A DNA stretch of 64,000 nucleotides from Phaeodactylum tricornutum CCAP 1055/1 (taxonomy: Eukaryota; Bacillariophyta; Bacillariophyceae; Surirellales; Neidiaceae), in assembly GCF_000150955.2 (NCBI RefSeq), contig NC_011686.1, forward strand, positions 248,001 through 312,000. Direction: 5' to 3'. Both the position numbers and the translations under genes were made by a program. Positions 12,238 to 25,695 of this stretch are shown piece after piece (position 1 is the first letter of the stretch; the number at the start of each line of letters is the position of its first letter). The notes under the pieces are model-generated. The model ran no database searches, was not told the origin of the DNA, and worked only from the letters and a program-made list of their open reading frames with translations.

Positions 12238-13668
12238 ATGATTGCTGCGTCCGCCCTCAAATGCGCATCCTATGAGGGAAGGAGTGGCGTAGCTGCCGCG
12301 GTCCGGCTGGTGTCGTCAATGCGTACTCGCAACTCCGAGACGATCGGTGCATTGTCGCCGTACTGCTACGATCACACCCACTTGCCATTGTCTACAACAA
12401 GGGCTCAGGCTTTCTCGGCTGCTTCCGCCGTGAGAGACTTTGCAGATCCGCAGGGGGCGGCCCGCAAACACCGTCCGATTTACATCGCGGCGACGAGGCA
12501 GCACGTGGGCAAGACCTCGGTCAGTCTCGCACTGATGAAAGGATTGCAGCGCCGTGTTCCCAAAGTAGGTTTTCTAAAACCCGTTGGACAGCATTCCGTA
12601 CGAATTGCCGAGCTCGACGGCAGTGTCGTGACGGTCGACAAGGACACCGCTTTGATCGTTCAACACTTTGGACTTACACGGCATCAGACATTGCAAGATG
12701 CCAGTCCAGTCCTCATTCCGCCGGGGTACACAAAAGATTACGTTGACGGGAAAATTACGCTCGATACTCAACGTGCCTCCATCGGAAAAAGTTTTCAACG
12801 CGTCGCTTCCTTTGCCGATATTGTCCTCTGCGAAGGAACCGGACATTGCGCCGTCGGTAGCATCGTAGACGCCAGTAACGCCGCCGTCGCGTCTTGGCTC
12901 GGCGCCCGGATGGTCCTTGTGGCCAACGGTGGTCTGGGGAATTCTGTGGACGAACTTGAACTCAATAAGGCCTTGTGCGACAAACATGGGGTTGAGATTG
13001 CCGGCGTTATCATCAACAAGGTCTTGCCCGAAAAGTACGAACAGACAAAATACTATCTGGAGAAAGCATTGCACGATCGGTGGGGTATTCCCTTGCTGGG
13101 ATGCGTTCCGGATCGGGCGTTTTTAGGATGTCCCGCCTTGGCCGATCTAGAGCGTCTCTTCCCCGGCGCGATGTTAGTTTCTGGGCTCGATCATCGACTG
13201 CGACATTATACGGTGCAAGATTTGAACCTCGTCGCCACATCGCTCGAAGTCTTTTTGCGCAATCTGCGAACCGATCCCTCCCGCACGCTTTATGTTTGTC
13301 ACGCTTCCCGAAACGATATCTTGCTCGGCTTCCTTATGGAAAGTCAGCAACGGCCGGACTGGGAAGCCGCGTTAGTTGTCACAGGCTGTCACGATTATCC
13401 CGTCAGTGACCAGGTTTTGCAAATCATCACTTCCATGCCTTCGGCCCCACCGGTGCTCTTGGCATCGCCACCGACGCGACAAGTCATGCACGATATACAC
13501 CACTTTACCCCAAAATTGAATTTTGAGGATGGACACCGCGTCGAAGCCGCTGCCGCTCACTACGAACCCTACATTGACTTCGATCTTCTTTTGTCGAGGG
13601 TCGGAACGACGTCTACTGGCTCCTCGAAATCTACGTCGAAAGCCGGCCTTGCAGTCGCAGTGCCGTAG
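12238..13668 (+). CDS. BioD-like P-loop / DRTGG-domain protein, probably organellar
   Basis: 476 residues, one exon. Residues 1-75 are rich in Ala, Ser and Arg with few acids, like a mitochondrial pre-sequence. Residues about 80-330 form a dethiobiotin-synthetase-like P-loop domain (AAA_26 type): IYIAATRQHVGKTSVSLAL at about 81-99 with GKT at 91-93, FLKPVGQ near 113, CEGTGHCAVGS near 199, and VANGGLGNSVDEL. Residues about 340-450 resemble a DRTGG domain (LYVCHASRNDILLGFL, ALVVTGC, PVLLASPPT). This pair of domains is also found at the N-terminus of some bacterial phosphate acetyltransferases, but here the catalytic PTA domain is absent. The true substrate is unknown; it should not be called a biotin enzyme without further evidence. 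Confidence 0.8.
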   Translation: MIAASALKCASYEGRSGVAAAVRLVSSMRTRNSETIGALSPYCYDHTHLPLSTTRAQAFSAASAVRDFADPQGAARKHRPIYIAATRQHVGKTSVSLALMKGLQRRVPKVGFLKPVGQHSVRIAELDGSVVTVDKDTALIVQHFGLTRHQTLQDASPVLIPPGYTKDYVDGKITLDTQRASIGKSFQRVASFADIVLCEGTGHCAVGSIVDASNAAVASWLGARMVLVANGGLGNSVDELELNKALCDKHGVEIAGVIINKVLPEKYEQTKYYLEKALHDRWGIPLLGCVPDRAFLGCPALADLERLFPGAMLVSGLDHRLRHYTVQDLNLVATSLEVFLRNLRTDPSRTLYVCHASRNDILLGFLMESQQRPDWEAALVVTGCHDYPVSDQVLQIITSMPSAPPVLLASPPTRQVMHDIHHFTPKLNFEDGHRVEAAAAHYEPYIDFDLLLSRVGTTSTGSSKSTSKAGLAVAVP

Positions 13669-13756: not shown

Positions 13757-15105
13757 TCAAGCATCCAGGCTAAGCGTTTGATGCACACATTCTCTATTAT
13801 GTTGCTTTAGATCTCCGCCATCGCGCCAGCACGACAGTACCCTGCCGCTCCGTAGCCATCGGCACCACGTGGCTGTGACGTAGATAACGACATCCCCATC
13901 GAGTTTCCGCAATGTTCGAATCAAGCCATCGATGCGAGCCAACGCTTTAGATACATCACGAATCCGTGCGGGCGGCAGCGGTTTGGCTGTGCCCAGCTCA
14001 ACATACCCACCGTGTTCCACAAGACCTAAAGTCAGCAGTGTTCCCCTTGCCGGCGTATTCCAAACAGCGCTCGCAAAGTTTACATTGCCGTTTCGCAGTC
14101 GACGATATTTGGCTCGGTCCGGGTTTAGCAGAATATTGCGTAAATATGCATGCAATACCGGCCAGTCCAGGTAACAAAGGCGTTGACAGTAAATCAACGT
14201 CCACTCGAGAGCTTCGGATTTTGACGTGAGGTGGTTTGCGGTGGGAAAGGGCAGAATAGGATCGTCCACGATGCAGCTGTAGCAGGCCTGTTCTTGAGTA
14301 GTCGTGTGTATCACGTCCCGTATCGTAAAGCGATGCATGCCCAATGTCGGATCTTCGGGGTGTACTGTAGGCTGTGATGAATTGGTAGGAATAACACGGT
14401 AAGGTATATAATGCAGGATAATGTCGTCAGTGTGGGCGTCCCGAAAGATCCAGGGGTGATCGATCCAAGTCGTCTGGGTCAAAACATGTCCAGGCGCAAT
14501 TTTTTTCCTTCAGGCGCTTCCGCGCCCTTGAAATTGACCCAAAAGACTTGCAAGTACCGGGACGTCGCGTTGGTCACTTGCAAGTACAAGTCAACCTTAC
14601 CACGACGGGATCGAGGATTATATGGCGGAATGACAGGAGTGTCGTCAACCCGACCACGAATGTAAACGCGAAATAGAGAGGCTTCTATGTCGCACCAGCA
14701 TGCAAACCCGGGATGTTCGTCTGTGGCTGTGCGAGCGAATATCGGGGGTCCGGGAGGCTTTGATGTAAGTGAGGAACTACAAAGACTTGAAGAACGCTGT
14801 GTCTTTAATCGCGGCGTAACAGTCTTTTGCCTCCCTGAGAATGGCGCCAGACTACTGCAATCTGCATTCACTTCTGGCTGAACGTCCTTTTGCAGTTTCA
14901 AGGCTTTCGCCAAATCATCCAAAAGAATTCGATTTGGTGTGGATTTTGAGATGAGATGAGCACTTTGGTTGTTGTTCCGAGAAAGCCACCAAAGGTAGGA
15001 GGCAATCGAAATTGCGCAAGTCCACAAAATAGGGACACCTCGCGGCTGGATCGTTTCCTTCCAGATATGCTCAACTGAAGTAGTCCACCAAGGGTCGATG
15101 TACAT
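13757..15105 (-). CDS. membrane-anchored VHL beta-domain / PUB-domain protein, frame-split
   Basis: Two overlapping minus-strand frames read as one protein: 15105-14479 (208 codons) and 14482-13757. The N-terminal part has a single membrane segment (about residues 23-42, ILWTCAISIASYLWWLS). At its end comes a VHL beta domain: VTNATSRYLQVFWVNFKG in the first frame, then PGHVLTQTTWIDHPWIFRDA in the second. The switch occurs at a run of seven A on the minus strand (plus 14500-14506); one more A would make the frame continuous through the domain core. The C-terminal part holds a PUB domain (LRNILLNPDRAKYRRLRNGN, then FASAVW, LLTLGLVEHGGYVEL). VHL domains recruit hydroxyproline substrates to ubiquitin ligases and PUB domains bind the tail of p97/Cdc48, so a proteostasis role is inferred. 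A sequencing error, a real allele difference or recoding could explain the split. Confidence 0.7.
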
Positions 15106-15374: not shown

Positions 15375-15567
15375 GAGGAAATTCCCTATCCGGGCGACGC
15401 CTAGCCCGCAATTCCCCTATCCGGGCCAAATCCGAGTTTTTCTAAGTAATATTTTTTGAGCGCGAAGTACCTCTTAAGTAACACAACCATTTAGCATTTT
15501 TTCCTTTATATTTGTCTATGATCGTGTAGAGTATATTCCTCATGCATTGGCATCAGTAGCTGTTGGT
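15375..15567 (+). repeat. MULE left terminal inverted repeat (193 bp)
   Basis: Reverse complement of 25503-25695 with no difference seen. Near the outer end a motif, ATTCCCTATCCGGGC, occurs twice (15381-15395 and, with one extra C, 15411-15426), a good candidate for paired transposase binding sites. The inner 100 bp is A+T-rich and may carry the transposase promoter. Confidence 0.93.
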
Positions 15568-15690
15568 GGTAAAAATCAATGCCTCCCATCCATTTGTTGC
15601 CTTTAAAGCAGTTTGCTTGGAACACTTGCTACCAACTCCTACGTGGTACAATCGCACAAAGTTACAAGTACACCAAGAGAATAAACCACC

Positions 15691-17592
15691 ATGAGGCTAG
15701 CAGTCAGTGAAATCTTTCCTTCGTATAATGCTCTCCAGACTGCATGGTTTTCCCACAACCAAGTACTTGAGAAAAACTACAGAATTTTGGAAAACAAATC
15801 TGGAAAGTGCTTTCGAGCCAATTGCATTTCAGCGCCTGAAAGGAACTGGAAACAGAACGAAACAATTTGTCAGTGCCACATCAATGCAAGACCTGTGAAA
15901 AATAGCGACGGTTGCCTCACTGGAGAGTGGAAAATCTGCTCTTTTCATGGTGTGCACACTTGCTCAGATTATGAGTCCACACGAAAACGCAATTATAAGT
16001 GTTCGGTCCTCAATGCGGTTTCTCCGTCATTAAGTGGATATGTTCCAAACCGGAAGAAGCGCATTGGCGCTGCACAACAAGTCAGGGAAATTGCACAAAG
16101 ATCCAATGGAATACACCTTACAAAATCCCATGCCTATAAGGTTGTAACAGCCAAGCGACGCGATGGAATCGAAGTGCACATTGGGCAGTATTTTTTGCTG
16201 ACATCCTACTTCCAGCACTTGAAAAGAGCTGATCCAGAAGGTAGCTTTATACTTGAAACACAGCACAGTTTGTGGCAATCTGAATTTAGGCAGTTTCAGC
16301 GTTGTTATGTTGCATTTTCATTTGCAAAATATGCCTGGAGTGTGGGATCTATTCGTGTTGTTACCAGTGATGGTACATTCACAACTTCTCCAGTTTTTAA
16401 TCACATTATCCTGCTGGCTGTTACTCATGATGGTAACAACCAGCTTGTCCTTTTGGCATATGCTATTTGTGATATTGAGAATGAATCCAATTGGACATGG
16501 TTTGGAGAGCAGATAGGAAAGGACTTTGAGGGAGCTACTGCCTTTGTGGCAGATTTTGACAAGGGCATACAAAGTCATGCATTCCAATCTCTTGTAAGAA
16601 GCATGGGAGCCAAGTTTGGTCGCTGTGTGCGGCACATGATTGCCAATGCACGTGACCATGGCGTCAAACGAAAAATTCCAGATAGTGTTTCTACAGCTGT
16701 TTATGCTTTGGCCAAATGTCGGACAAAGGGTGCATATCAAACATCATTGCAATATCTTGAGCATTTGGACAAGGACATTGCTGATTGGTTCCATGAGCGA
16801 AAAGAGCAGTTTGCAGCATATTTATTTCTTTTGGAAGGGAAGCCAAGATTTGGAAAGCAGCTTAACAATGCTGCTGAGCAAATGAACAGTGTAATTGAGG
16901 AGCTACGACAGCAGCCAATCCTTGATTTGCTTGTTGGATTATCTCAGTGGATGATCAAGAAATTTGTCAAGCATTCTAACCTGTCAAAGCAATGGGCCCA
17001 AGAAGGTCTAACACTGACAGCATTTGCTCAAACAAAACACCTCTCCTGCATGCAAGAGGCTAGTAGACGCTCTGTTTTGATCACTTATCATGAAGGAACT
17101 CTTTGGAGAGCTCAGGTTGCACACCTACACAACAATACTCCTGGATCTAGATTGGATGTTGAGGTCAATGCAGGAACTTTCCAAATTCAATGTCCATGCC
17201 AGTACCAGAATGAGTACGGACGTCCGTGTATCCATGCTATGGCAATTATCATCCATGCTAAGCTTGAACCAAATGACAATAGATGGTACAACTCCCTATA
17301 TCATTTGGTTACATACAGCCAGATGTATAGCTGGCCTATTCCATCAATTTCCTTGTTGGGAAATTTAATGTTGGAAGAGCTTTTGCCACCAGAACACAAG
17401 GTCAGAGGAGGTAGACCCAAGAAAAAACGATATGAATCATCATCAGCAAGGCCAATGACGTGCAGAGCCTGTGGAATAGTTGGTCATACACAGCTTACTT
17501 GCCAAAAGCCGAGCACTCAAATACGATACTTGAATCACCGTCAGCAGGCTTTACAATATGCTGAGTCTGAGGCCAAAATGTCTGTTATGTAA
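15691..17592 (+). CDS. MULE transposase
   Basis: 633 residues, one exon, starting at ACCACCATGA. The N-terminal third has a Cys/His zinc-binding region (GKCFRANC, CQCHINA, CSFHGVHTC), like the FLYWCH/FAR1 domains of these enzymes. The core is an RNase H-fold DDE domain: first Asp in VTSDGTFTTSP (about 226), second in FVADFDKGI (about 287), a C-x2-H pair in GRCVRHMIAN, and the expected Glu in NNAAEQMNSVIEE (about 395). A SWIM zinc finger (CPC, then CIHAMAI, about 505-520) and a zinc knuckle (CRACGIVGHTQLTC, about 590) close the protein. All expected parts are present and there is no break, so the enzyme looks functional. It would cut and join the element's ends. Its low G+C content differs from host genes nearby, which suggests a foreign or horizontally moved element. 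Confidence 0.93.
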   Translation: MRLAVSEIFPSYNALQTAWFSHNQVLEKNYRILENKSGKCFRANCISAPERNWKQNETICQCHINARPVKNSDGCLTGEWKICSFHGVHTCSDYESTRKRNYKCSVLNAVSPSLSGYVPNRKKRIGAAQQVREIAQRSNGIHLTKSHAYKVVTAKRRDGIEVHIGQYFLLTSYFQHLKRADPEGSFILETQHSLWQSEFRQFQRCYVAFSFAKYAWSVGSIRVVTSDGTFTTSPVFNHIILLAVTHDGNNQLVLLAYAICDIENESNWTWFGEQIGKDFEGATAFVADFDKGIQSHAFQSLVRSMGAKFGRCVRHMIANARDHGVKRKIPDSVSTAVYALAKCRTKGAYQTSLQYLEHLDKDIADWFHERKEQFAAYLFLLEGKPRFGKQLNNAAEQMNSVIEELRQQPILDLLVGLSQWMIKKFVKHSNLSKQWAQEGLTLTAFAQTKHLSCMQEASRRSVLITYHEGTLWRAQVAHLHNNTPGSRLDVEVNAGTFQIQCPCQYQNEYGRPCIHAMAIIIHAKLEPNDNRWYNSLYHLVTYSQMYSWPIPSISLLGNLMLEELLPPEHKVRGGRPKKKRYESSSARPMTCRACGIVGHTQLTCQKPSTQIRYLNHRQQALQYAESEAKMSVM

Positions 17593-18824
17593 TGTAAAGA
17601 TAGTTGTTGCATATTCTAGACTATCATGTTAGGTGTCCTCTATATAATATCATTGTTCATCATTAAGTTGTTCTATTTTATAAGTAAAATTCAATGTAAA
17701 GCATGTAAACAAAGGCATCTACCGTAGAGGACCTCCTTCTGGTTTTCTATTTTACTCTGGTTTTCCATGCAAGCATGAGGAGTGTTGCGATTGCGGGGAC
17801 GCCAAAGCCTGGAACACTGCTGGTTGCAAACAACACCGTCCTCCACCAGCGCTACTTTCCGAAAACGCCACGCATTACCCAGGCAATCCTTTTGAAGCCA
17901 TCCACGCCAGCCGCCGCAGATGCACACTGCCACCTTGGCCGTTGTGGTCGGAGCCGCCGTACACAGCCTTTTCAATACCGTCAAGTGCGCCGGGATTGGC
18001 ACCAATCCTGTACAGTGGAGACAACAATGGGCCGTTGAGGTGGTCAAAATTGCCAATGGCATCGTGCATCCCAAAGATTACGCCCGCATCCAACCCAAGG
18101 AGCGTCGCGGCAATGACGACAACAGCAACCCCACAATATTGACCCGCCCGTTTCTCTGTCCACCTTCTGGGTGGAGGTCACCACCACCCCTGCCTTCCCA
18201 ACCGGATTTCATTTGCAACTACAACTCCACAATGATAACGTATCCTCAAGAAGCACAGGCGTCGACCCAACACCGCCACATGCCAAACAACCCCTCCTGC
18301 AGCGGTTGGGTGCCATGGCAAGCATGACTACAGATGGTGCGGACAACACAATGAATTGTGCGGACTGGTGGAAAAAGCGTGCAGAACACGTTGACGGCAT
18401 TGGTGTACGCGTTTGATACCGCTTCGCAGAAACAGCAAGAGGCGGACCGGATCACGTCAAGTCTCTTTCTGCTTTGCTTGCCTGGCTTGCAACTGGTCAG
18501 CGGCGTCGGCACGATTTGTCTGGATCAACTCGAGGCACGTCAGTATGATTTTGAACATACGGCTTCCGGGATGGATGATGCGGAAGAAGATTTCGTCCAT
18601 CAGCCGTCGAACGATAGCTTGTTGCCGGCCTTGACGTACGTGGCGGGAGACCATCCTCTCATGACATCCTTACTAGCGGCTCCGGACGACTGCTTTTGGA
18701 TTCCCGGTCGACCCGTCACAAGCGGCTGCCGCATATGCTGTGCAATTTAGATTACGTTATTGAGACACTCGGTACTGCGATTCGACTTCTCTTACCACGA
18801 CGCTTTCTGGTATATCACGGGCCA
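17593..18824. other. MULE interior of unknown origin (possible captured host DNA)
   Basis: The first 0.18 kb is A+T-rich 3' flank of the transposase. From about 17775 composition shifts to higher G+C and stays so up to the Copia insertion. Several overlapping open frames exist (plus 17920-18327, plus 18171-18416, plus 18358-18750, minus 17691-18074), but none extends through the region or matches a known family. The longest plausible reading is on the plus strand and changes frame near 18400. This could be a decayed gene fragment, spliced sequence or a non-coding filler; I cannot decide. Confidence 0.4.
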
Positions 18825-19292
18825 TGTCAACTGGAATGACAGTTTTGAATACCGGTTCGCGCGATGGCGCGCACTACTTGGGTCGTGGCACCCAAGGCGA
18901 GCCTGTCGAAACTAATCTTGTGTGTTTGGCCACAAATCCCGACACGGATGGTTTTGGACAGGCGCAATCTCAGTTGAGTATTCAGAAACATGATGTGACT
19001 GTTTCGGGACTCGATCGTTACCATGCTAAGAAGCATGGTAACTATGATGAATGTGCCCACGGTGCCGTGTATAACACCGTGGAGAATAGTGAAACGGACC
19101 ACGATGGCGCTTGGCAGATCGTGGGGCCGAATGGAAAGTGAACAGATTAGCTCTTTAGTTTAGAGTTTATAAATCTTAACAACGATTGTGTGAAAACCAT
19201 ATTCGTTAGTTCGTATCTCTTCGTTAGGAGCCAGACGAGTCTTGATCACCTCGTGCTGTCTTCAGAAGCCAGGAGATACTTGACCGTTGTCA
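18825..19292 (+). repeat. Copia 5' LTR (468 bp)
   Basis: Identical by eye to 24916-25383. It contains two clear stem-loops: arms 19017-19027 / 19032-19042 (11 bp perfect, 4-nt loop) and arms 19057-19064 / 19075-19082 (8 bp perfect, 10-nt loop). Confidence 0.95.
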
Positions 19293-19523
19293 GATTAACA
19301 GTCTTGATTTGCTAATCACTTTGCTCCCGTTTGTTGGGTATTGCCTGGTTCTGTGACAGAACGGCAATAAGGCAACCCATTGGGTAAGACCAGTGGCTTT
19401 GTTGTTGTTGTTGTTTCGATCTGCTGACGAGTCGATCGGATAATTGTTGTCTCGCTTGTCCTTGGTGCACGAGATACTGTGTTTGTCTCGTTTGTCCTTG
19501 GTACACGAGATACTGTTGTGTGA

Positions 19524-22500
19524 ATGGCCCGACAGTTGCGTTCGAGAATCATTCCTGCTTTGACCATGGATCCTCTCGAGCATGTCCTTGTGAACCTTTT
19601 GGGAGCGACAACGCTGGATTCGTCGTACCGTCGGTTCTTTGAAGAGTATGGCATTACTCAGGCCAGTGAATTGGCCTCAATCACTGAACATCGTCTTGCA
19701 ACGGTGTCTTACGGCGTCTTGACCCCTGCTGTGGGAGACGGCCCTGCTGCAATTGTTCGTACATTCCTTCCGCCTGCGCAACAGGACCGGATTTTGAAGA
19801 TTGTACAATGGTTCCTTTCGAAAGGCACCAATGTGACAAACGACACCTGGCTTGAACTTACCTCTGATGTTCTCGAGTATTGGCAACCCGCCTCTGCTAC
19901 TGTTGCCCCAGCTACTCCTGTTGGATCGGATGCTCGAAGTTCCTTTGTTGAAAGTGCTGCCGCGAAATTTCGGAAGACGATCAAAAATCATTCCGTCCCG
20001 TATCCAAAGTTCAGTGAAGACCGTTTTTGGGTCACTTGGAATACGAATATTCGTATCAAGCTCCGTATTCATGGTGTTCAGTTGGTACTTGACCCGGATT
20101 ATTTGCCTGAGACCGTCGACGAGACGGATACGTTTGTTGAAATGCAGAACTTTGTCTTTGGCGTTTTCAACGATATTTTGTTGACCCCTCGTGCGCGTGG
20201 AATCCTCCACAAGCATGTGGATGAGCTGGATGCTCAGTCGGTCTACCGCGACCTTGTTGCCTCGTACGGCAAAGGTATTAACGCGCAGATCACGGCCACA
20301 TCCATTGAAACGAAACTTACTTTGTATTCATTTGCGACTTCAAAGAGCAAGACCTGTGTTGCTTTTTTGACGACCTGGCGCAATTTGATTTACGATCTTG
20401 AACGGATCAACGAGTTCCCTTTGCCGGATCACCAGAAGAGCGTACGACTGAAGTCAGCTGTCCGTTCCCATCCGCAATTGAAACTTTTCCTCGGAAATGT
20501 TCAACTTTACTCTCGTACCCATGTGGGTAAGAGTGCTGATGATTCCGATTTCGAGTATGTTTATGATTTGATGCTTGAACATGCAACTGATATTGATCAG
20601 ACCGATTTGGAAGACCGCGGTAACAACCGTGGTGGACGCTCAGCAAACAATGCGAAGTTCCAGTCTTCTTCCAAGAAGAAAACTAACAAACCGATTGGTA
20701 AGAAGCACAAGAATTATGTGCCTCCTGAGAAGTGGAATGCTCTCTCTCCCGAAGAGAAGCGGACCATTATGGATCAACGAGGACCTCGCCCTGCTCCAGC
20801 CCCTGCCCCTGCCTTATCGGTGAACGCCGCTGCCACTCAGCCCCCTCCTACGGTGTATGTCAGTGACTCGACGGCTGTTGACAACCAAAGCCTTGCTTCG
20901 ACCCACGTCCCACCTGCTGCTGGACCTGGTCACCTGCTTCGTTCGCTCATTTCGAATTCAGCTGCCCGCCAGCACTCTGCCCCATCGAATGGAGCCACGT
21001 CTGACTCTTTTTCGGTCAATGGGACCACCTATCGCCGCGAAGTGAACCGTGCTTCTGTGCAGTACCGTCTTTCCACTCACGATGTTTCGTTGAATAAGGA
21101 CTCTTTGGTCGATGGTGGTGCCAACGGTGGCCTTAGCGGCTCAGACGTAACCGTTATTTCGCAATCCCTGTCAGAGGCAACTGTCTCTGGAATTGGAAAT
21201 TCGGAATTGACCAACCTCCGTTTGTCAACAGTGGCCGGACTCATTCACACGACGGATGGTCCCATTATTGGTGTGTTTCACCAGTATGCTCATCTTGGTA
21301 CTGGTAATACCATCCACTCGTGCAACCAAATGCGCTCCTGGGGAGTCACGGTTGACGACGTCCCTCGTACTTTTGGTGGCAAACAGCGTATTGTCACGTC
21401 CGATGGTCGTTTTGTCATCCCGCTTTCGGTTTCTGGCGGACTCACTTACTTGTCTATGCAGGCCCCTACCGAGGAGGACCTGGACACTTTCGAATGGGTG
21501 CCTTTTACCGCTGACAACGAGTGGGATCCAAATAGTCTCTCTTCTCCTGCCGCTGCCGACGATGACCTCAGTTTGCAGCTTCCTGTCGGCCATGTTCCGT
21601 TCCGTGACGAACGCATCAACAACTTTGGTCTCCTTGCGCATTCCGCGGCAGTCAGTCGATCCCCTTTGAATGTCGATGCTTTGCAACCCAATTTTGGATG
21701 GGTTCCCAGTGCTCGTATCGCTCGTACGTTTGAAAATACCACGCAATTTGCTCGTGCCGATGCCCGTTTGCCCTTGCGCAAACACTTCAAATCGCGTTTC
21801 CCTGCTGCCAATGTCTCTCGTCTGAACGAAATTGTGGCAACCGATACTTTTTTCTCGGATACCCCTGCGGCCGATGACGGCATTTTTAACCATGGTGGGG
21901 CTACGATGGCCCAACTTTTCGTTGGAAAAAGTTCGCAAATCACCTCTGTCTTCCCGATGAAGCGCGAGTCTCAGTTTGCCCATACTTTCGAGGATTTTAT
22001 CCGTACCCATGGTGCTCCCGATGCCCTCCTCAGCGACAATGCCCGTGCTCAGATCGGTAAGCAGGCACTTCAGATCTTGCGCATGTATGCGATCGACGAC
22101 ATGCAGTGCGAGCCGCATCATCAGCACCAAAATTACGCGGAACGCCGCATTCAAGAGGTGAAAAAGATGGTGAACACAATCATGGATCGTACAAACACTC
22201 CTCCTGAATATTGGTTGCTCTGCTTATTTTATGTGACCTACTTGCTCAATCGCCTCTCTGTCGAAAGCTTGAATTGGCGTACCCCGCTTCAGGTTGCCCA
22301 TGGACAGCGTCCCGATATTTCTGCTTTGCTCCTTTTTCGTTGGTTTGAGCCCGTTTATTATTACGACCCTGACCATGCGTCTTTCCCATCGCATTCTCGC
22401 GAGAAAACTGGTCGTTGGATTGGTGTCGCCGAACATAAAGGTGATGCGCTGACTTATTGGATTTTGACAGACAATACTCACCAGGCCATTGCTCGTTCTG

Positions 22501-25232
22501 TTGTTCGTCCAGCCAATGTCGATAATGGTTTGAAAAACCATCGTGCTGCGGATTCCTCTCCCGATGGTGGGGAGCCCTCGAATCCTAAGCCCATTGTCTT
22601 GGCTACGAGTGACCTACGCCATGACGCTACGATTGATCCATCTTTTGAGAAATCCCATGCATTCTCTCCTGACGAATTGATCGGCAGATATTTGATTCGT
22701 GAAGCCCCTGACGGCCAGAGCCATCGAGCCCTTGTTGCTCGTAAAATTATTGATGCCGACTCCGATAACCACCAGGCAATCCGCTTCTTGTTGCAAATTG
22801 ATGAAAAGGATGCTGACGAGATCATTTCGTACAATGAACTCTCCGATTTGATGGAAGCCCAACAATCAGAGCCCGCTACGAACGGAAATATCGAAGATCA
22901 TTTCAAGTTTACTAGTATTATTGGACACCAAGGCCCTTTGCAACCGACCGATGCGGGCTACAAGGGATCCTCTTGGAATGTTTTGGTTCAATGGGAAGAT
23001 GGTTCCCAGTCGTACGAACCTCTAATTGAAATGGCAAAGGACGATCCAGTCACACTCGCGATGTACGCGTCTGACAACGATCTTCTTAACGTGCCCGGGT
23101 GGCGCCGCTTCAATCGTCTGCTTCGCAACCGTGATGACTTCAATCGATCTGTTTCGTTAGTGAAACAACGCAAGGGAGACCCAATTTTCAAGTTTGGCGT
23201 CCTTGTCCCTCGTAATTCTCGTGAAGCCCTGAAATTTGACGCTAACGCCGGTAATACTCGTTGGGCCGATGCCATGGAGCTCGAACTGGCTCAGCACCGT
23301 GAGTATAAAACGTACAAGGACCTCGGTCAGGGCGCAGCCAAACCTGGCCCTGGATACCAGCGGATCAATGTTCATTTCGTGTTTGATGTGAAGCAGTCAC
23401 TCAAATACAAGGCCCGGCTCGTCGCCGGTGGACACATGACGGCGCCTCCGAAGGACAGTGTTTATTCCGGTGTTGTATCCCTTCGGTCCATTCGTCTCGC
23501 TCTTCTTGCTGGTGAGGTAAATGGACTGGAAACGTGGGTTGGTGACATTGCGGTCGCCTACTTAGAGGCATACACGAAGGAACAGGTGTATTTTGTTGCC
23601 GGTCCTGAGTTTGGGGAGCTTTCTGGGCATACCTTGCTCATTGACAAGGCCTTGTATGGCCTACGTACTAGTGGAGCCCGTTTCCATGAGCGTCTCTCGG
23701 ACTCCCTCCGTACGATGAATTTTATTCCTTGCAAAGCGGACCCCGACCTCTGGATGCGTGACTGCGATGACCATTGGGAGTATGTATGCGTATACGTCGA
23801 CGATATTGCATGCGTCTCACGAAACCCCAAGGCCTTTTTTGATTCCCTTGTTTCAGACCATCATTACACTCTGAAGGGTGTAGGCCCTCCAACTTACTTT
23901 CTTGGTGGTGATTTTACTCGCGACAGTAAGGACAATACTCTCGCAGTTGGTGCGAAAACATACGTGAAACGTATTATTTCGAACTACAAGACCTCCTTTG
24001 GTACGGAGCCCAAGTTGTACTCGTCTCCTCTCGAGAACGGTGACCATCCGGAAGTCGACGCTTCGCAACTCCTTGATTTCGGTTCGATAAAATTGTATCA
24101 GTCCCTCATCGGTGCCCTCCAGTGGGCCATCACTCTCGGGCGCTTTGACATACAGTGTGCCGTCATGACGATGGGACGCTTTCGTGCTGCCCCTCGTGAA
24201 GGACATTTGAATCGTCTCCGTCGTATCATCGGATACCTCCGTCGATACCCTGATGCTGCCATTCGTTTTCGTACTGGAATTCCCAACCATGAGGCTCGGG
24301 GAGACGTCCCTCAACACGACTGGATGTACTCAGTGTACGGTAAATCGAGTGACGAGGACTCTCCGACAGGCGTTCCTCCTGCTCGTGGTAAGCCCATGCG
24401 CATTACTACCTTTGTTGATGCTAACTTGTACCATGATTTGACTACAGGCCGTGCCACAACTGGTGTCTTGCATTTGGTTAATCAGACTCCTGTGTCTTGG
24501 TTTTCCAAACGGCAGTCTACAGTTGAAACGGCTACGTACGGTTCAGAGTTTGTTGCTGCTCGTTTGGCTACAGAACAAATTATTGACATGCGTCTTACGC
24601 TACGTATGATGGGTATTCCTTTGGACGGTCCCGCTTGGCTCCTTGGCGACAATCAGAGCATTGTTACCAGCTCTACGCTTCCTCATTCCGTTCTTTCTAA
24701 ACGACACAATGCCCTTGCGTACCACCGCGTCCGTGAGGCGATTGCTTTTGGGATCATGCATTTTTTATGGATTGAGGGCAAAGACAACGCTAGCGATGTG
24801 TTGACCAAACCTCTCGGTCATGCAGTTGCTTGGCCTTTGATTCAGCCTTTGTTGTTTTGGAAAGGTGAGACGAAATCTCCCGCTTGTTCTGTCTCGAGTA
24901 CCTCACAGTGGGGAGTGTCAACTGGAATGACAGTTTTGAATACCGGTTCGCGCGATGGCGCGCACTACTTGGGTCGTGGCACCCAAGGCGAGCCTGTCGA
25001 AACTAATCTTGTGTGTTTGGCCACAAATCCCGACACGGATGGTTTTGGACAGGCGCAATCTCAGTTGAGTATTCAGAAACATGATGTGACTGTTTCGGGA
25101 CTCGATCGTTACCATGCTAAGAAGCATGGTAACTATGATGAATGTGCCCACGGTGCCGTGTATAACACCGTGGAGAATAGTGAAACGGACCACGATGGCG
25201 CTTGGCAGATCGTGGGGCCGAATGGAAAGTGA
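19524..25232 (+). CDS. Copia Gag-Pol polyprotein ORF
   Basis: A single 1902-codon frame. From the N-terminus: a Gag-like region (about 1-400), a Lys-rich and then Pro-rich hinge, an aspartic protease region (about 530), an integrase core (about 770-960), the reverse transcriptase with its YVDD motif (about 1410-1430), and RNase H (about 1630-1770). The frame does not stop at the end of the internal region but continues about 105 codons into the 3' LTR. The element's products would copy its RNA and insert the DNA. As a recent, whole-looking insertion it tells of current or very recent Copia activity in this lineage. Confidence 0.92.
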   Translation: MARQLRSRIIPALTMDPLEHVLVNLLGATTLDSSYRRFFEEYGITQASELASITEHRLATVSYGVLTPAVGDGPAAIVRTFLPPAQQDRILKIVQWFLSKGTNVTNDTWLELTSDVLEYWQPASATVAPATPVGSDARSSFVESAAAKFRKTIKNHSVPYPKFSEDRFWVTWNTNIRIKLRIHGVQLVLDPDYLPETVDETDTFVEMQNFVFGVFNDILLTPRARGILHKHVDELDAQSVYRDLVASYGKGINAQITATSIETKLTLYSFATSKSKTCVAFLTTWRNLIYDLERINEFPLPDHQKSVRLKSAVRSHPQLKLFLGNVQLYSRTHVGKSADDSDFEYVYDLMLEHATDIDQTDLEDRGNNRGGRSANNAKFQSSSKKKTNKPIGKKHKNYVPPEKWNALSPEEKRTIMDQRGPRPAPAPAPALSVNAAATQPPPTVYVSDSTAVDNQSLASTHVPPAAGPGHLLRSLISNSAARQHSAPSNGATSDSFSVNGTTYRREVNRASVQYRLSTHDVSLNKDSLVDGGANGGLSGSDVTVISQSLSEATVSGIGNSELTNLRLSTVAGLIHTTDGPIIGVFHQYAHLGTGNTIHSCNQMRSWGVTVDDVPRTFGGKQRIVTSDGRFVIPLSVSGGLTYLSMQAPTEEDLDTFEWVPFTADNEWDPNSLSSPAAADDDLSLQLPVGHVPFRDERINNFGLLAHSAAVSRSPLNVDALQPNFGWVPSARIARTFENTTQFARADARLPLRKHFKSRFPAANVSRLNEIVATDTFFSDTPAADDGIFNHGGATMAQLFVGKSSQITSVFPMKRESQFAHTFEDFIRTHGAPDALLSDNARAQIGKQALQILRMYAIDDMQCEPHHQHQNYAERRIQEVKKMVNTIMDRTNTPPEYWLLCLFYVTYLLNRLSVESLNWRTPLQVAHGQRPDISALLLFRWFEPVYYYDPDHASFPSHSREKTGRWIGVAEHKGDALTYWILTDNTHQAIARSVVRPANVDNGLKNHRAADSSPDGGEPSNPKPIVLATSDLRHDATIDPSFEKSHAFSPDELIGRYLIREAPDGQSHRALVARKIIDADSDNHQAIRFLLQIDEKDADEIISYNELSDLMEAQQSEPATNGNIEDHFKFTSIIGHQGPLQPTDAGYKGSSWNVLVQWEDGSQSYEPLIEMAKDDPVTLAMYASDNDLLNVPGWRRFNRLLRNRDDFNRSVSLVKQRKGDPIFKFGVLVPRNSREALKFDANAGNTRWADAMELELAQHREYKTYKDLGQGAAKPGPGYQRINVHFVFDVKQSLKYKARLVAGGHMTAPPKDSVYSGVVSLRSIRLALLAGEVNGLETWVGDIAVAYLEAYTKEQVYFVAGPEFGELSGHTLLIDKALYGLRTSGARFHERLSDSLRTMNFIPCKADPDLWMRDCDDHWEYVCVYVDDIACVSRNPKAFFDSLVSDHHYTLKGVGPPTYFLGGDFTRDSKDNTLAVGAKTYVKRIISNYKTSFGTEPKLYSSPLENGDHPEVDASQLLDFGSIKLYQSLIGALQWAITLGRFDIQCAVMTMGRFRAAPREGHLNRLRRIIGYLRRYPDAAIRFRTGIPNHEARGDVPQHDWMYSVYGKSSDEDSPTGVPPARGKPMRITTFVDANLYHDLTTGRATTGVLHLVNQTPVSWFSKRQSTVETATYGSEFVAARLATEQIIDMRLTLRMMGIPLDGPAWLLGDNQSIVTSSTLPHSVLSKRHNALAYHRVREAIAFGIMHFLWIEGKDNASDVLTKPLGHAVAWPLIQPLLFWKGETKSPACSVSSTSQWGVSTGMTVLNTGSRDGAHYLGRGTQGEPVETNLVCLATNPDTDGFGQAQSQLSIQKHDVTVSGLDRYHAKKHGNYDECAHGAVYNTVENSETDHDGAWQIVGPNGK

Positions 25233-25383
25233 ACAGATTAGCTCTTTAGTTTAGAGTTTATAAATCTTAACAACGATTGTGTGAAAACCATATTCGTTAG
25301 TTCGTATCTCTTCGTTAGGAGCCAGACGAGTCTTGATCACCTCGTGCTGTCTTCAGAAGCCAGGAGATACTTGACCGTTGTCA
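24916..25383 (+). repeat. Copia 3' LTR (468 bp)
   Basis: Identical by eye to the 5' LTR at 18825-19292. The end of the polyprotein frame overlaps its first 317 bp. It is followed directly by the duplicated GGCCA. Confidence 0.95.
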
Positions 25384-25437
25384 GGCCACGTATGGAGCCA
25401 AAACGACGCGGCACAGTAGAGGCGCGTTGAAAAGTTG

Positions 25438-25466
25438 CCCCCCCCCCCCCCCCACACACACACACA
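25438..25466 (+). repeat. poly-C / CA microsatellite
   Basis: A run of 16 C followed by alternating A and C for 13 bases. It lies in the short MULE interior between the Copia element and the right inverted repeat. Confidence 0.9.
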
Positions 25467-25502
25467 TTGTGATTCACTTGTGCCAAGTACTGACTGCATC
25501 AA

Positions 25503-25695
25503 ACCAACAGCTACTGATGCCAATGCATGAGGAATATACTCTACACGATCATAGACAAATATAAAGGAAAAAATGCTAAATGGTTGTGTTACTTAAGAGG
25601 TACTTCGCGCTCAAAAAATATTACTTAGAAAAACTCGGATTTGGCCCGGATAGGGGAATTGCGGGCTAGGCGTCGCCCGGATAGGGAATTTCCTC
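25503..25695 (-). repeat. MULE right terminal inverted repeat (193 bp)
   Basis: Reverse complement of the left end. It is followed at 25696-25704 by the second copy of the 9-bp duplication. Confidence 0.93.

Follow-up and report, generated by a model that had tools for sequence, protein, structure and literature searches.

In metazoans, the VHL domain of pVHL chooses substrates for ubiquitin ligases. PUB domains are found in PNGase (NGLY1) and in UBXD1 (UBXN6), where the PUB domain is a binder of the p97 tail. In the available part of PMC6995525, p97 binding by PUB domains is attributed to the motif YxxN(x)9Y, common to UBXD1 and PNGase, together with [KR]xxN, and the tail of human p97 is given as DDDLYG; residues of the PUB pocket were also taken from an excerpt of PMC4017264. 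The sPUB of SELMA belongs to diatom plastid import, and Table 2 of PMC6610115 lists a PUB protein for P. tricornutum. A pairing of VHL and PUB in one protein was not found described in the literature searched, which was open-access only; the author of a preliminary description did not know of the pairing as a described system either.

The window, by which we mean the whole stretch of 64,000 nucleotides that was analysed (C18:248001-312000), contains a locus of Phaeodactylum tricornutum in which the two domains follow each other on the minus strand. We put about even confidence in the reading that this nuclear diatom gene encodes a Cdc48/p97 adaptor with a VHL-type head. The VHL-PUB gene is a single-copy locus in the genome contigs searched (27,450,724 bases, 88 contigs). 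A search for relatives of ORF B gave four pattern-matching stretches in viral contigs and 35 stretches in bacterial and archaeal genome contigs, and none of either set was confirmed. The peptides quoted in the preliminary description were located on the minus strand inside 13757-15105, and the features of this span are listed below.

14479..15105, minus strand: ORF A (208 aa), comprising the N-terminus, the marginal hydrophobic segment, a linker and the VHL domain for its first two thirds, up to a TGA
14983..15039, minus strand: hydrophobic segment, residues 23-41, a possible single-pass anchor (Kyte-Doolittle)
14414..14610, minus strand: VHL beta domain, positions 3-67 of 82 of PF01847 (Pfam); spans the frame break
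14479..14485, minus strand: frame break from ORF A to ORF B, inside the VHL domain (ORF map and codon-usage frame flip)
13757..14482, minus strand: ORF B (241 aa), comprising the remaining third of the VHL domain, a linker, the PUB domain and a tail
14039..14158, minus strand: core of the PUB domain, positions 10-49 of 82 of PF09409 (Pfam; AlphaFold model and Foldseek)
14084..14146, minus strand: motif of the p97-tail (PIM) pocket in full, YxxN(x)9Y(x)3[KR]xxN (motif scan, after the available part of PMC6995525)
13760..13880, minus strand: C-terminal tail; codon usage in frame B is not coding-like and the true end is uncertain

The span had been taken for one intact protein, and the reference sequence contradicts this, as ORF A ends within the VHL domain and ORF B continues in another frame. 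No single open frame covers 13757-15105. ORF A starts immediately 3' of an in-frame stop and stops at the TGA within the VHL domain. The VHL domain itself is confirmed by the PF01847 profile: with the two frames joined, it scores 32.8 bits (E 6.9e-8, residues 166-230), above the Pfam cut-off of 21. Searched by itself, ORF A gave no Pfam match at E<=1; ORF B by itself gave the PUB domain, a VHL stub of 20.2 bits against the same cut-off, and one irrelevant family far under its own cut-off. NCBIfam gave no family at E<=1 for ORF B and two for ORF A, both far under cut-off. When the genome was searched with PF01847, this locus was the sole match (25.8 bits, read through a stop). A single-sequence search of the PDB returned 23 hits, all of them VHL, with E-values of 0.57-1.2 that are not significant. 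The alignment with human VHL, weak when taken alone (best E 0.57), runs without a gap over the frame break, which locates the break within one domain.

Codon usage flips frame at the break. In a model whose training set was 17 further long ORFs from the window (11,196 codons, including the 633-aa transposase and a 1902-aa retroelement frame), frame A is preferred over 14700-14485 (6.2 vs -6.4 and -9.2) and frame B over 14480-14250 (4.2 vs -15.5 and -5.8). A programmed frameshift was rejected, as inspection of the sequence at the break found no heptamer at which slippage would produce the required shift, and selenocysteine or stop read-through at the TGA was dropped because the frame changes as well. 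ORF A and ORF B might alternatively be spliced together over an intron or be translated separately as two genes. Of the GT/GC-AG pairs of 20-600 nt, 231 would make the frame continuous between the ATG and the final stop; Pfam scoring was applied to one of them, a 65-nt GT-AG stretch that ends at CCCAG beside the break. Omission of this stretch restores one open frame but removes residues of the VHL consensus, so that the VHL score falls to 20.8 bits (cut-off 21). Its codon usage is coding-like in frame A, and its donor reads GTCAAT compared with GTATGT in the one intron read, which lies in a Cdc48 gene (n=1). We regard splicing or separate translation as very unlikely. Separate transcripts for the two halves, named in the preliminary description as grounds for refutation, are nevertheless compatible with the broken frame of this sequence. 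This leaves three explanations for the break: an error in the reference, a difference between alleles, or genuine damage to the gene. We judge that a defect of the assembly or of one allele, or damage of very recent date, is more likely than two genes.

The PUB domain named in the preliminary description was recovered as a significant match that stays under the Pfam cut-off. E-values range from 1.5e-6 to 9.2e-6, but the scores of 30.2 bits (genome search), 28.5 bits (ORF B alone, E 1.5e-6) and 27.2 bits (joined frames) all miss the cut-off of 34.3. The match is partial and ends at position 49 of the 82 positions of PF09409; after the pocket, GL stands in place of the conserved GF, and the alignment has a gap of one column. 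A profile made from the other ten PUB domains of the genome matched the window sequence over 49 columns with a probability of 86% (E 4.8e-6). The AlphaFold model, which covers 13868-14233 and was computed from an input alignment of the genome's 11 PUB domains that favours a PUB outcome, is of moderate confidence overall (mean pLDDT 71.7, pTM 0.54); in residues 21 to 80, where the pocket lies, block means are 79-92. In a Foldseek search of the PDB with this model, the top two hits were 2hpj, the mouse PNGase PUB domain, and 2hpl, its complex with p97, both at E 8.4e-4. Hits 1-17 were PUB-domain proteins (PNGase, UBXD1 and HOIP/RNF31), E<=0.001 being reached in the first 2 only, and the TM-scores with 2hpj, 0.51 by query and 0.61 by target, were moderate. 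By sequence, the profile of the genome's 11 PUB domains finds UBXD1 as its best match, and PNGase and HOIP. Since the domain lies under the Pfam cut-off, we refer to it as a divergent PUB-like domain, a judgement that rests on the predicted fold and the pocket.

The pocket is complete in the window PUB, where the whole motif Y..N.........Y...R..N is present with all five residues kept. In the sequence alignment with PNGase, its best fold match, the pocket residues Y38, N41, Y51, R55 and N58 are identical, in line with the motif in the accessible text of PMC6995525. At Pfam E<=1, the window protein is without the catalytic domain of PNGase and carries a VHL domain, and it also differs from UBXD1 in being without a UBX domain. 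None of the ten other PUB domains of the genome has the whole pocket motif, and two of the ten have YxxN(x)9Y. Judged by these residues, the window PUB has the most canonical pocket of the 11, despite the lowest Pfam score in the genome search. Among the AAA loci L015-L021, DLYS tails were found on two Cdc48-like proteins, EDLYS in L020 (C11) and DDLYS in L015 (C10). The L020 gene, of which L018 is the first exon, passes the CDC48 cut-off of 802.65 with 822.1 bits, whereas L015 falls below it with 750.9 bits. L015 carries a hydrophobic leader and is possibly the plastid-type Cdc48; L016, L017, L019 and L021 have other endings. From the complete pocket, we predict that the window PUB binds a Cdc48 tail. 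The link to p97 that had been proposed for this protein can be kept as a prediction, supported by the full pocket motif, the fold search and the two DLYS-tailed Cdc48-like proteins.

Alternatively, the locus could be a pseudogene: it would once have been a working VHL-PUB gene, put out of action not long ago by the frame break, with the young Mutator-like element upstream as a possible further cause. The TGA within the VHL domain, the partial PUB match and the presence just upstream of a 10.3-kb Mutator-like element with identical terminal inverted repeats are consistent with such a loss. So is the codon usage at both ends: the first 102 codons have no coding signal (frame A -2.4, frame B -0.9), and the last 40 codons, the tail at 13760..13880, score -8.7 in frame B and 1.0 in frame A, which holds one stop there. 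Because these first 102 and last 40 codons are without codon-usage support, it is uncertain where the gene begins and ends. In the PUB part, frame B scores -0.6 vs -9.9 and -10.8 for the other frames of its own strand, and about equals an opposite-strand frame with 4 stops (-0.7). Decay is opposed by the number of lesions, as the VHL-PUB span has only one clear break in about 448 codons, by the preservation of five of five pocket-motif residues, and by VHL similarity and a codon signal that run up to and past the break. We consider a pseudogene the main rival of the adaptor, unlikely but with an appreciable chance of being correct. Either the VHL-PUB gene provides an unusual helper of p97, or it has suffered damage in the recent past.

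The role of the VHL domain as a chooser of substrates for a ubiquitin ligase, which the preliminary description had carried over to this protein, was not supported. The beta domain is like that of human pVHL in the Pfam comparison, though not significantly in the PDB single-sequence search. However, the joined protein shows only VHL and PUB at Pfam E<=1, with no match to the alpha domain, the part that binds elongin C in pVHL. The hydroxyproline pocket of pVHL is formed by W88, Y98, I109, S111, H115 and W117 in the section of PMC6650433 available, and Tyr98 is emphasised in that of PMC6008493. The window protein retains equivalents of Trp88, His115 and Trp117 (three of six identical), and the other half of the pocket is replaced, Ser111 by Thr, which is conservative, Tyr98 by Glu and Ile109 by Gln. 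A receptor of the pVHL type, which would read hydroxyproline for a cullin ligase and also bind p97, would agree with the three retained residues in the beta domain and with the elongin C homologue encoded in the genome (L024, E 1.9e-23 vs PDB elongin C). The missing alpha domain and the exchanges at Tyr98, Ile109 and Ser111 speak against such a receptor, which we hold to be highly improbable. An elongin C partner is thus available in the genome, while the known VHL contact with it is not visible in the predicted protein. We take the VHL domain to be, most plausibly, a binding module without an assigned ligand.

A membrane segment ahead of the two domains had also been proposed. The hydrophobic stretch is present, but as an anchor it is marginal: the best 19-residue Kyte-Doolittle mean, the highest in the joined protein, is 1.42 against a threshold of 1.5 for membrane segments. 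The N-terminus shows no convincing signal peptide by eye. The window protein shares a PUB domain with the sPUB of SELMA, and it was considered as the sPUB of the plastid import machinery and rejected for the want of such a peptide, L005 being the better candidate. L005 (C13:636011-639214) combines thioredoxin and PUB, and the open frame upstream of it starts with a signal-peptide-like leader; we infer that it is a candidate sPUB. Another PUB protein, L008 (C1:526279-529452), has a clearer N-terminal hydrophobic helix than the window protein (Kyte-Doolittle 2.04 vs 1.42), and this genome may have a class of PUB proteins tethered to membranes.

PF09409 matched 12 places of the genome at E<=0.1, 10 of them over the cut-off and the window copy under it. 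Our count of 11 PUB domains leaves out C2:928020, which scores 17.8 bits, contains 2 stops and has a 361-aa open frame on the opposite strand. Seven of the ten other PUB domains share their open frame with a further Pfam domain, one of the seven under cut-off. These are a ubiquitin-like domain in L002, thioredoxin and UBA in L003, UBX (the one below cut-off) in L004, thioredoxin in L005, PDZ in L009, UBA in L010 and a thioredoxin-like domain in L011, whose PUB domain scores 32.1 bits in the open frame, below the cut-off of 34.3. PUB was found alone in L006, L007 and L008, with the proviso that all these architectures were read from open frames, some of them single exons, so that extra domains may be missed. 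Since the other PUB frames carry such varied domains, the VHL-PUB pairing is one among a series of PUB combinations and not an isolated oddity. Next to PUB proteins with ubiquitin-like, UBA, thioredoxin and PDZ domains, the window protein seems to be a further Cdc48 adaptor, though its head is unusual. A wider proposal is that the diatom PUB domain is a general clamp for Cdc48 tails with many swappable heads, and that a VHL domain without its elongin arm hands clients directly to Cdc48. We find this proposal doubtful. Ten of the 11 PUB domains are without the whole pocket motif, and Cdc48 binding by the whole set is therefore an assumption.

For an adaptor encoded at this locus and expressed, we propose the following mode of action. 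The PUB domain would clamp the -DLYS tail at the free C-terminus of Cdc48, as its complete pocket suggests, and the VHL-type beta sandwich upstream of it would serve as a head that binds clients or partners. The weak hydrophobic stretch at the N-terminus may keep the adaptor at a membrane, although this localisation is uncertain. The adaptor would then deliver clients to the C-terminal side of Cdc48 or hold them there, and would itself be no receptor of a cullin ligase. It would be one of about eleven PUB proteins in which the clamp is paired with different heads. If the gene works, it is a case of a VHL domain that is coupled to the p97 unfoldase and no longer to the machinery of ubiquitin ligases, and the 11 PUB places in one genome point to a diatom set of PUB adaptors. 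If it is a pseudogene, the locus still records a VHL-PUB fusion.

Two neighbours of the locus were also characterised. The convergent gene at 12238-13668 on the plus strand encodes a 476-aa protein with an AAA_26 domain, and 88 bases separate its end from that of ORF B. On the other side, about 270 bp upstream of the ORF A start codon, is the Mutator-like element (window 15375-25695). Its terminal inverted repeats are identical in 193/193 bases, it is flanked by a 9-10-bp target duplication, TAAAAAAAG(G), and it looks young. The frame of its MULE transposase occupies 15691-17592, and two more copies, 100% identical in protein, are present on C9 and C29. The 1902-aa frame at window 19524-25232 has a reverse transcriptase domain (RVT_2) and lies inside the Mutator-like element, so that one mobile element appears to be nested in another.
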